Shown: in pieces, positions 207 to 49,158 of the stretch | Layout of the letters: every line of letters begins with the position of its first letter | How positions within the stretch are numbered: the stretch's first letter is position 1 | Assembly: GCA_009780315.1 (NCBI GenBank) | Contig: WRAH01000012.1 | Coordinates: 1 to 64,000, forward strand | Direction of reading: 5' to 3' | Length of the DNA: 64,000 nucleotides | From: Defluviitaleaceae bacterium | Lineage (GTDB): Bacteria > Bacillota > Clostridia > Lachnospirales > WQUN01 | Program-made: the position numbers and the translations under genes | The notes under the pieces: generated by a model | The model's database searches: none | What the model was told of the DNA's origin: nothing | The model's input: the letters and a program-made list of their open reading frames with translations, nothing else

Positions 207-308
207 ATGTTTTTGTATCTACACCTTGTAGCCTTTATATGTAATTTCTTTATACCGTTCAGACCTTTTGGTGATGACGAAGGCCCTGGCGGATTTGGAG
301 GAGTCTAA
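207..308 (+). CDS. 33-aa hydrophobic PFG/GPG peptide
   Basis: A short gene with an AAAGGAG ribosome site ending about 10 bases before its ATG. The peptide starts MFLYLHLVAFICNFFIP, which is almost wholly hydrophobic, and ends in a glycine-rich tail containing PFGDDEGPGGFGG. Its layout (MFL start, about 17 hydrophobic residues, PFG, then GPG) matches two tandem peptides near 46.8 and 47.1 kb, so I treat all three as one family. The stop codon is immediately followed by the ATG of the next gene, and the SD of that gene lies inside this one, so the two are probably translationally coupled. The function is unknown: a secreted signal peptide, a small membrane peptide or a toxin are all possible. 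What lies upstream is outside the window. Confidence 0.6.
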   Translation: MFLYLHLVAFICNFFIPFRPFGDDEGPGGFGGV

Positions 309-530
309 ATGGATAAAGAAACTGAAAAGTCATTATTGATTAAGGAATTTATGAAAGCACTGATAGCAACCTCTTCAGACGAAGATAAAAAAATGATACT
401 AGACCTTGCAGACGCATCCCTTCTAAATCAATCTGAAAATATCAGAATTTTAGAAGGGATGTTTTTTATTTTACAGTCATTTCCATATTCCAAGCCCCAA
501 AGCATTCTGATAATGCGTGGGAATGATTGA
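309..530 (+). CDS. hypothetical protein, 73 aa
   Basis: A small soluble-looking protein, acidic and lysine-rich in its first half (DEDKKMILDLAD). I recognise no domain. Its ATG directly follows the stop of the 33-aa peptide and is preceded by GGAGGAG, so it is probably the second gene of a small operon. A role in handling or answering the upstream peptide would be a guess from position only. No signal peptide or membrane span is visible. Confidence 0.6.
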   Translation: MDKETEKSLLIKEFMKALIATSSDEDKKMILDLADASLLNQSENIRILEGMFFILQSFPYSKPQSILIMRGND

Positions 531-45683: not shown

Positions 45684-46766
45684 CTATTCTTCACGGGGCT
45701 GTTCATTTTTAGTTGCTTTTTTCTTTGGCTTGCCATGGTTGGGGTACTTGTATTTTGAATGCAGTGCAATGAAGTCTAAAATATGCTGTTTGTCTTCGTC
45801 TGTCATATGTTTTGTGGCAGCGATGACAGATAGCAAAAATGGGTCTGCATCTTTTATTTTTGCATTTTTATTGCCAAAGAAAAACCCAACATCTACACCT
45901 ACAAGGCTTGCCAACACTTGAAGCCTGTCTATAGAAATGCCATCATCCCCACGCTCTATGGCGGCAACGGTGCTTTGGTCTGTACCCAGCCCTCCTGCAA
46001 TGTGAAGGGTTGATATATCTTTTTCCAGCCGTTCTTTGCGCAGTTGATATCCTATTGAAATGTAGGACAAAGGCGCGGCTAGAGGGGTTCTCATGTATGA
46101 AAGATATTCTGCTATTTCATCACGGGTGGTTTTATATATTTTTCTATCACCCAGCTTTTTAAGCTCTATCATTGCGTCCTTTGCCGCTTCTGCGTCACAC
46201 TCATAAACGCCGTACCGTATTTGTAAGACATACTGAAGCGGTGAGTTGTTTTTCTTAGCCCTGCTGAAAACATATTCAAAGCAACTTTCAAACAGTTCAT
46301 CTACTTTTAATATATCAACATCAGATTCAATGAACTTAGCACGAAGTAGACGGTATGTTAGATTATATTGTAATGAAAGATAATTTTTTCTAAATTGCTT
46401 GTTATCTGATTCATCTTCGTCAGTTAATAAATCCTTTGCTTCATTAAAGAACTCTAATGTGGTTTTAACTGATGGAATGTATCCAATGACAGAGGATATT
46501 GAATGCAGTTCCACTCTTGCCCATGGATTAGTGTCCTCTAGTTGTTTAAAAATAGGTGCGGCAATGGCACAACACTCTTCAAATGTTTGTTGGTTATTAT
46601 CTGCATTAAGCGTATTTAAAACATTTAGAGCCAAAATCAATTCAGAATCTATTGATTTTACTAGATATTTTTCAATTCTCTTGATAAGTTCGTCTGATTT
46701 TTGTTCCTCAAGACTCGCATATTCTAGAAACTCATCAATTAGGATTTCCTTTGTGTCCACTGTCAT
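45684..46766 (-). CDS. TPR-like/XRE transcriptional regulator with C-terminal HTH
   Basis: A 360-aa regulator with an unusual layout. Residues 1 to about 225 are all-helical and TPR-like (ELILALNVLNTLNADNNQQ; LQYNLTYRLLRAKFIES). The XRE helix-turn-helix comes afterwards, at about residues 240-300 (SYISIGYQLRKERLEKDIST and STVAAIERGDDGISIDRLQV), and a Lys-rich tail follows. In classical RRNPP regulators the HTH is N-terminal. It lies directly downstream of two tandem peptide genes on the same strand, so I infer a peptide-responsive regulator. BrnT/BrnA remnants follow. Confidence 0.75.
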   Translation of the reverse strand: MTVDTKEILIDEFLEYASLEEQKSDELIKRIEKYLVKSIDSELILALNVLNTLNADNNQQTFEECCAIAAPIFKQLEDTNPWARVELHSISSVIGYIPSVKTTLEFFNEAKDLLTDEDESDNKQFRKNYLSLQYNLTYRLLRAKFIESDVDILKVDELFESCFEYVFSRAKKNNSPLQYVLQIRYGVYECDAEAAKDAMIELKKLGDRKIYKTTRDEIAEYLSYMRTPLAAPLSYISIGYQLRKERLEKDISTLHIAGGLGTDQSTVAAIERGDDGISIDRLQVLASLVGVDVGFFFGNKNAKIKDADPFLLSVIAATKHMTDEDKQHILDFIALHSKYKYPNHGKPKKKATKNEQPREE

Positions 46767-46802: not shown

Positions 46803-46910
46803 TTAAAAATTTAAGTCCCAATTGTCAACACATCCAGGTCCACCAGACCCTCCAAACGGTACAAATGATAAAAAACTAGATATCAATGTAAATACGTTAG
46901 GCAAGAACAT
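46803..46910 (-). CDS. 35-aa PFGGS/GPGC peptide
   Basis: AGAGGATGAGCGATT precedes the ATG. The peptide begins MFLPNVFTLISSFLSFVPFG and continues GSGGPGCVDNWDLNF. It is nearly identical in its first 80 bases, and in its ribosome site, to the gene at 47019-47120, so the pair arose by tandem duplication. Differences are mostly conservative at the amino-acid level, which supports real coding. It ends about 37 bases before the XRE regulator. Likely a small secreted or membrane peptide, possibly the signal sensed by the regulator; this is inference. Confidence 0.65.
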   Translation of the reverse strand: MFLPNVFTLISSFLSFVPFGGSGGPGCVDNWDLNF

Positions 46911-47018
46911 AATCGCTCATCCTCTTCTAAGAAACTCTATAAATTTGTTGGTTGCAGCCGTCAGTTGCAAGAGGTGTCAACTCTTTTCTTGTTTGTTCTA
47001 TAATTTTGAAAATAAACT

Positions 47019-47120
47019 TTAACCGTTCCAGCCTTCAAAACACCCAGGCCCAGCAGAACCACCGAAGGGGGTAATTGAAAAGAAACTACATATTGATGTA
47101 AACAAGTTAGACAAGAACAT
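47019..47120 (-). CDS. 33-aa PFGGS/GPGC peptide
   Basis: AAAAAGGATGAGCGATT precedes the ATG. The peptide begins MFLSNLFTSICSFFSITPFG and continues GSAGPGCFEGWNG. Shared with its neighbour are MFLxNxFT, the Ser/Phe-rich hydrophobic core, PFGGS-GPGC and a C-terminal Trp. A related peptide with PFG and GPG lies at 207-308. An extended -10 (TGATATAAT) lies about 60 bases upstream. No processing or export enzyme specific to it can be named. Confidence 0.65.
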   Translation of the reverse strand: MFLSNLFTSICSFFSITPFGGSAGPGCFEGWNG

Positions 47121-47176
47121 AATCGCTCATCCTTTTTAAGAAATGCCCATGATTTAATGTACTAATATCCAAGAGC

Positions 47177-47185: not shown

Positions 47186-47242
47186 CAATATAATATAACT
47201 TATTTTTAGATGACAAAGCAATAAAAAATAAGGATAACACCC

Positions 47243-48963: not shown

Positions 48964-49137
48964 TCATTTAGGCACTATATCAGGAATTTCCAAGTCTGCC
49001 AAAGGGTCACATGCAGTATATACGCTAACGCAATCATCATATCCCTTTTCATAAGCATGAGTGATATCGCATATTAAAGTTGTTGTCCCACCAAGAAATA
49101 AGGCAGTAAGTAAAAGTGTCACAATACGTTTTTTCAT
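48964..49137 (-). CDS. secreted Phr/PapR-like pro-peptide, 57 aa
   Basis: The peptide starts MKKRIVTLLLTALFLGGTTT, a clear signal-peptide-like N-terminus, with a probable cleavage after THA, then an acidic stretch with two or three Cys and a C-terminus DLEIPDIVPK. The end resembles the active NprX heptapeptide SKPDIVG as I recall it (shared PDIV). AAGGGAATACTTGATT precedes the ATG. A weak promoter (TATACT at 49168-49163) lies in the adjacent repeat module. It ends 3 bases from the convergent RRNPP regulator. I infer a signalling pro-peptide; a small secreted Cys protein is the alternative. Confidence 0.7.
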   Translation of the reverse strand: MKKRIVTLLLTALFLGGTTTLICDITHAYEKGYDDCVSVYTACDPLADLEIPDIVPK

Positions 49138-49158
49138 AATCAAGTATTCCCTTCAAGA

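Follow-up and report, generated by a model that had tools for sequence, protein, structure and literature searches.

Tandem small peptide genes ahead of a regulator with a predicted RRNPP-like sensor domain in inverted order in a Defluviitaleaceae genome

In a stretch of 64,000 nucleotides from a Defluviitaleaceae draft genome (contig WRAH01000012.1, positions 1 to 64,000, in the following the window) two short peptide genes lie in tandem directly ahead of a gene for a DNA-binding regulator, and units of this kind are present in many copies in the source genome. We consider it likely that such a unit is a self-contained peptide/receptor module working like RRNPP signalling of the Rgg, ComR or PlcR type, with an inverted receptor architecture and mostly leaderless peptides. 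An earlier note on the window had proposed a peptide and peptide-sensor unit of a type it could not name; our analysis supports this proposal and, going by fold, the type can now be named as RRNPP-like with inverted domain order.

Both short open reading frames described in the earlier note, which share a common ribosome site, were found ahead of the regulator (Table 1). Peptide genes 1 and 2 start with an identical GGATGAGCGATT-ATG and are separated by 108 nt, and 36 nt lie between the end of peptide gene 2 and the ATG of the regulator. The note had also described a regulator of 360 aa with an all-helical N-terminal part and an HTH behind it, which agrees with a Pfam match to HTH_3 at aa 242–295 (E 8e-6) and with a helical model of the N-terminal 225 aa. 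Pfam and NCBIfam gave no convincing match for the N-terminal 235 aa of the regulator or for the peptides, and a TPR or ComR_TPR match of the N-terminal part was absent in Pfam. Downstream of the regulator we noticed by eye what is apparently a decayed toxin-antitoxin pair.

Table 1. Positions of features in the window, numbered from its first nucleotide.
Feature	Position	Strand	Basis
Peptide gene 1, MFLSNLFTSICSFFSITPFGGSAGPGCFEGWNG, 33 aa	47019..47120	-	ORF; paralog matches; peptide profile E 2.6e-15
Peptide gene 2, tandem copy, MFLPNVFTLISSFLSFVPFGGSGGPGCVDNWDLNF, 35 aa	46803..46910	-	ORF
Shine-Dalgarno GGATGAG of peptide 1	47126..47132	-	Sequence; conserved with paralog L010
Shine-Dalgarno GGATGAG of peptide 2	46916..46922	-	Sequence
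Promoter-like TTGTCA-18-TATATT upstream of peptide 1	47187..47216	-	10/12 consensus; weak, count not above shuffles
Regulator, 360 aa, repeat domain then HTH	45684..46766	-	ORF, family alignment, model
N-terminal all-helical repeat domain, about aa 1-229	46080..46766	-	Predicted fold similar to Rgg/ComR/PlcR peptide-binding domain
XRE/HTH_3 DNA-binding domain, about aa 238-300	45867..46055	-	HTH match
BrnT-like fragment and BrnA-like ORF of 68 aa	45304..45614	-	By eye
Further family peptide, MFLYLHLVAFICNFFIPFRPFGDDEGPGGFGGV, Shine-Dalgarno AAGGAGTG	207..308	+	Peptide profile E 3.7e-7
Family-regulator remnant, N-terminal start and C-terminal tail, middle missing	309..530	+	By eye against family alignment and L028 tail
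Divergent AbrB/MraZ-like protein, 100 aa	47316..47618	+	Profile matches; frequent unit neighbour in source genome
Divergent AbrB/SpoVT-like protein, 86 aa	47615..47875	+	TIGR02851 1e-12 over first 50 aa
Canonical-order HTH-then-TPR regulator, 304 aa	48046..48960	+	
Small Sec-type propeptide, MKKRIVTLLLTALFLGGTTTLICDITHAYEKGYDDCVSVYTACDPLADLEIPDIVPK	48964..49140	-	

Peptides 1 and 2 are identical at 20 of 32 residues, with pS 0.52 and pN 0.19. Codon-wise comparison of peptide genes that are tandem copies or paralogs gave, for 12 disjoint pairs pooled, a pN/pS of 0.36 in the peptide frames (Fisher p 1e-14), compared with 1.13 and 1.25 for the same bases read in frames +1 and +2 (11 of the 12 pairs). 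Where the earlier note had considered that related loci might keep the DNA and lose the frame, the reading frame was thus found to be conserved. This purifying selection suggests that the peptides are very probably translated and that their amino acid sequence is under constraint and matters. Common to most peptides is a core consisting of a hydrophobic stretch and then P[F/L][G/S]; the stretch and P[F/L] recur in most families, the peptides being otherwise diverse. Most of them start with MFL or MFF without basic residues and carry acidic or Cys/Trp tails behind the core. The C-terminal Trp listed in the earlier note is neither strictly terminal nor universal.

The source genome, a draft of 2.9 Mb, contains about 19 full-length or near-full-length paralogs of the regulator, the one in the window included, as well as fragments. 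In the family alignment the paralogs are 25–52% identical to the window regulator. On reading the upstream regions we found 16 of the about 19 paralogs to be directly preceded by short peptides, one to four in number, that have a ribosome site, for example MFFSNLFTSICSFVPFMPFGGPGSAGSCKGWEF, MYLLNLFSLMCSTFVPFGQGYAPGDFKGWDL, MFLLNLFYFLGFIPIMPFADETDPEDW (four tandem variants in L014) and MFFCSIFALMFGGFGFMPIMPFGDPEDPCGF; three tandem copies each are present in L114 and L127. An upstream peptide was not found in the regions read for L011 and L024. Internal TAG stops considered in L011 and L020 apparently mark where these genes end, since both frames have their full length. A peptide profile built from 16 rows matched 21 sites in the genome, all of which (21/21) lie next to a regulator of the family or what is left of one. 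A search with the window peptide itself likewise matched only sites linked to a regulator. Peptides without a linked regulator, which according to the earlier note would speak against its reading, were therefore not seen among the 21 matches. One of the 21 sites lies near the start of the window, where a peptide is followed by a regulator remnant, apparently a decaying copy of a unit.

Full-length homologs were found in at least 12 further genomes from the same taxonomic order, belonging to the three GTDB families f1, f16 and f19, with 1 to about 10 copies each; the genomes compared are draft MAGs. The distribution is patchy: the one same-genus genome compared (G001) has no regulator, and synteny with it was uninformative. 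Samples of 390 other genomes of the class and 397 of the phylum showed no homologs. The phages, plasmids and viral contigs searched also contained none, so that there is no evidence for a phage or plasmid origin. Three carriers are the termite-gut Defluviitaleaceae MAGs Emb289P1bin53, bin130 and bin51; they were detected among named genomes with homologs from f19 and f1 as queries, whereas close paralogs of the window regulator gave no match there. Emb289 stands for the termite Embiratermes neotenicus, and MAGs of Defluviitaleaceae come mostly from the P1 gut compartment (PMC7024585).

Manual reading in the source genome and the other genomes revealed a peptide upstream of 47 of 57 HTH-bearing family members and none for the remaining about 10. 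Examples from other genomes are three copies of the MFLSLFTQVFMPFGWCCCDIPIED type in G118, the MRITISIKPNTSLIIDGDGWD type in G088, MKAPIVVIPFGGGGKPNLPEDE and MKVKAPVVVIPFGGIIKPNLPEEDNNG in G116, MKIGFYFVIIRPFIWIGGDDIDDE in G090, MALLYYIYYVAFRPLGQLSAG in G051 and MYYILISACCLISPFMNWLA in G010. We also applied an automatic rule asking for a Shine-Dalgarno sequence, an ATG, a length of 15–45 aa, at least 55% hydrophobic residues in the first 20 and an end within 300 nt. It detected such a small ORF ahead of 39 of the 62 family members and overlooks the more polar peptides of G088 and G116. By the same rule the background was 26 of 165 intergenic-preceded genes of the source genome; 11 of these 26 are themselves family members, which leaves no more than 15 among about 154 other genes as the corrected background (about 10%). 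The co-occurrence of peptide and regulator that the earlier note wished to see followed into related genomes thus holds across three GTDB families. Five members in G051 (L134, L137, L139, L140, L141) have no HTH and consist of the repeat domain only (about 230–247 aa), a Rap-like layout; no peptide was found upstream of any of them. In L034 and L047 the C-terminal ~70 aa behind the HTH resemble, by eye, the RNA polymerase alpha CTD.

We modelled the window regulator with AlphaFold2 from a 7-sequence alignment, obtaining confident helices for aa 1–225 (pLDDT mostly 80–94) and modest confidence for the HTH. Foldseek candidates were realigned with VIA-align; Foldseek's own E-values for these matches were not significant. 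The best match of aa 4–226 was Rgg144 residues 72–287 with Z 15.5, followed by RapF, ComR, Rgg2, RopB and NprR. Since helical repeats score generously, the search was repeated with the family member L147 (25% identical), likewise modelled from a 7-row alignment. Here the best 18 rows were all RRNPP receptors or close structural relatives, and the first other protein reached Z 13.4. Rgg144 scored Z 18.2 over 207 residues at 3.4 A, Rgg3-SHP3 16.8, a putative Listeria regulator 16.2, PlcR 15.0 and ComR 14.1. In HTH-bearing RRNPP matches the aligned part is the C-terminal peptide-binding domain (residues ~71–287). Sequence comparison did not link the N-terminal domain to RRNPP receptors or to TPR profiles, and a profile of 58 N-terminal domains matched no RRNPP chain among PDB sequences. 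The HTH part matches the HTHs of MutR, Rgg and ComR among many XRE proteins. The N-terminal half is thus predicted to be an RRNPP-like peptide-receptor domain by fold alone, and the regulator would combine this sensor domain with an XRE HTH in an order opposite to the known one. The repeat domain also precedes the HTH in the homologs that were aligned from further genomes. Because its HTH is C-terminal instead of N-terminal, we file the regulator as an inverted relative by fold and not as a member of RRNPPA. Highly conserved residues N135, R139, R142 and K144 lie in one helix of the N-terminal domain according to the family alignment and the model.

Distances between peptides and distances between receptors co-vary, with a Mantel r of 0.58 overall and 0.80 within the genome (p 1e-4), which would agree with binding of the peptide by the repeat domain but is not specific to it. 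A coevolution of the peptide specifically with the N-terminal domain over the HTH, apparent at first, was not robust after lengths had been equalised and is therefore not used as proof. Strong inverted repeats are located near the promoter in several units of other genomes (L118, L109, L107, L121); the inverted repeat in the window is weak, and no operator palindrome is shared across units.

For the mechanism we propose that translation of a short hydrophobic peptide, or of several of them, takes place immediately ahead of that of the cognate receptor. The concave groove of the N-terminal helical-repeat domain would bind either the whole peptide or a C-terminal fragment that processing leaves around P[F/L][G/S], and binding would alter the seating of the C-terminal XRE-type HTH dimer on DNA. 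The simplest target would be the promoter of the peptide operon itself, perhaps together with other genes, and the about 19 paralogous pairs with diverged peptides might serve as separate channels. Besides binding and targets, we infer a direction of regulation and, for quorum sensing proper, an export and re-import of the peptide. Seven Opp-type binding proteins in the source genome are candidates for re-import. The source genome lacks EcsB/PptB, which is the PptB-like partner of the SHP exporter, whereas the controls were positive, and most peptides have neither a basic N-terminus nor a recognisable signal peptide; both findings count against the proposed export. One upstream peptide, at L124 820–960 in genome G109, carries a Sec-type signal by eye (MKGKKRGIIAVLLALVMVATLATPLVADEA..., in full MKGKKRGIIAVLLALVMVATLATPLVADEATPPVRARSLDPGDEPE) and is the only such member.

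The strongest of the rival explanations takes up these transport data. The peptide might never be exported and instead act within the cell as a cis-acting co-regulator that reports its own translation or proteolysis, with no communication between cells. A hydrophobic opening mostly devoid of basic residues and the missing EcsB/PptB would fit, but a genome with peptides in tandem and as many as 19 diverged pairs is reminiscent of pheromone systems, and both the Sec-like propeptide of L124 and the Opp proteins speak against this rival. We regard an exclusively intracellular role as unlikely.

A toxin-antitoxin pair, in which the hydrophobic peptides would act as membrane toxins and the HTH protein as antitoxin and repressor, is quite improbable. 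The arrangement would fit such a pair, since a single transcription unit holds a short hydrophobic peptide and, behind it, an XRE protein, and XRE antitoxins are among the HTH matches; the model of the N-terminal domain, however, matches pheromone receptors and not antitoxins. Moreover, some genomes have polar or charged peptides with little hydrophobic span, such as MRITISIKPNTSLIIDGDGWD and MKAPIVVIPFGGGGKPNLPEDE. An intact peptide is tolerated beside the receptor remnant at window positions 207–530, and in L012, a further paralog of the source genome, the reverse is found, a broken peptide frame beside an intact receptor.

Genes surrounding the units were inspected by eye. AbrB/SpoVT/MraZ-like genes, often paired, are located divergently upstream of many peptide units in the source genome (in the window, L160, L161, L162, L164, L165, L166, L168 and L169). 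We considered these genes as a part of the unit; they are frequent in the source genome and not established in other genomes, and were therefore left outside the core. On their far side in the window lies a canonical-order HTH-TPR regulator with a convergent Sec-type propeptide (Table 1), so that two different peptide-sensor systems stand back to back with the AbrB-like genes between them. Similar convergent regulator/propeptide pairs are found beside other units (L160 8392–9531, L161 5238–6389), and the propeptides share YIE[S/T]IPFD. The neighbours otherwise vary by locus, and no maturation enzyme, exporter or immunity gene recurs near the units. This makes it highly improbable that the peptides are bacteriocin or RiPP precursors accompanied by a regulator, a reading to which the Cys-rich variants MCCYYYKWCECILEWFRRAAKCGG and MFLSLFTQVFMPFGWCCCDIPIED would lend themselves. 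Leader-peptide attenuation, in which translation of the small ORFs would control the downstream regulator gene, could draw on their co-directional position directly upstream of it, but is scarcely credible: selection acts on the peptide amino acid sequence, up to four tandem copies occur, and terminator-like structures are not above chance in the locus region and are lacking from the gap that separates peptide 2 from the regulator.

Turning back to the preferred reading of a peptide/receptor module, a 2025 structural phylogeny (PMC12700828) describes RRNPPA receptors as built on a core of five TPRs, to which an HTH may be added at the N terminus. The RRNPP_Detector survey dropped as suspicious those clusters in which the TPR region is N-terminal instead of C-terminal (PMC10075063) and requires TPR profile matches, of which the window family gives none; both the order filter and the profile requirement would explain how such a class could be passed over. 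No description of an RRNPP receptor with a C-terminal HTH was found in open-access literature text. We give about even chances to the broader claim that the units form an undescribed one-component class of peptide signalling in uncultured, mostly termite-gut, Clostridia, with inverted RRNPP-fold receptors, mostly leaderless peptides, about 20 channels per cell and an export unlike Sec or PptAB. Surveys of Gram-positive quorum sensing seek an N-terminal HTH with a C-terminal TPR region and secreted propeptides. If the claim is true, current counts miss a part of the peptide communication of bacteria, and the RRNPP fold has been coupled to a DNA-binding domain in both possible orders. Termite-gut Clostridia would then run many private signals in parallel, whose pairing is directly testable with synthetic peptides.

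Among known systems, the Rgg/SHP pairs of streptococci (Rgg144, Rgg2/Rgg3) are similar in the fold of the receptor domain, as judged from the predicted models with the Z scores for Rgg144 given above, in the XRE-type HTH, in a short hydrophobic peptide gene adjoining the receptor and in a one-component cytoplasmic design. They differ in that the HTH of Rgg is N-terminal whereas it is C-terminal in the window family, whose repeat domain has no detectable sequence homology to theirs. SHPs have a basic start and a hydrophobic C-terminus ending in Gly, and most peptides of the window family have neither. The window family furthermore has one to four co-directional upstream peptides and many paralogs, and EcsB/PptB was not found in the source genome.

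ComR/ComS, PlcR/PapR, NprR and PrgX (RRNPPA) likewise join a five-repeat peptide-binding domain, an HTH and an adjacent peptide. Their receptors have about 250–500 aa with a TPR-like domain; intact HTH-bearing members of the window family have 304–391 aa, with the fold taken from models. In the window family, by contrast, the domain order is reversed and TPR/RRNPP sequence profiles do not recognise it. Mature PapR7 is ADLPFEF (PMC6568020), and its PF core recalls the PFGG of the window family, as a resemblance only. With Rap/Phr the family shares the fold of the repeat domain, which matches RapF, RapI and others, and the HTH-less members of G051 are analogous in layout; the units of the window family end in an HTH, however, and its HTH-less members have no adjoining peptide. 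The multi-pair systems of Paenibacillus are RRNPP systems with the known domain order and secreted propeptides. More than 25 peptide-receptor pairs in one genome are given for them in PMC7425212, and the window family, in another host group, is like them in having very many pairs per genome.
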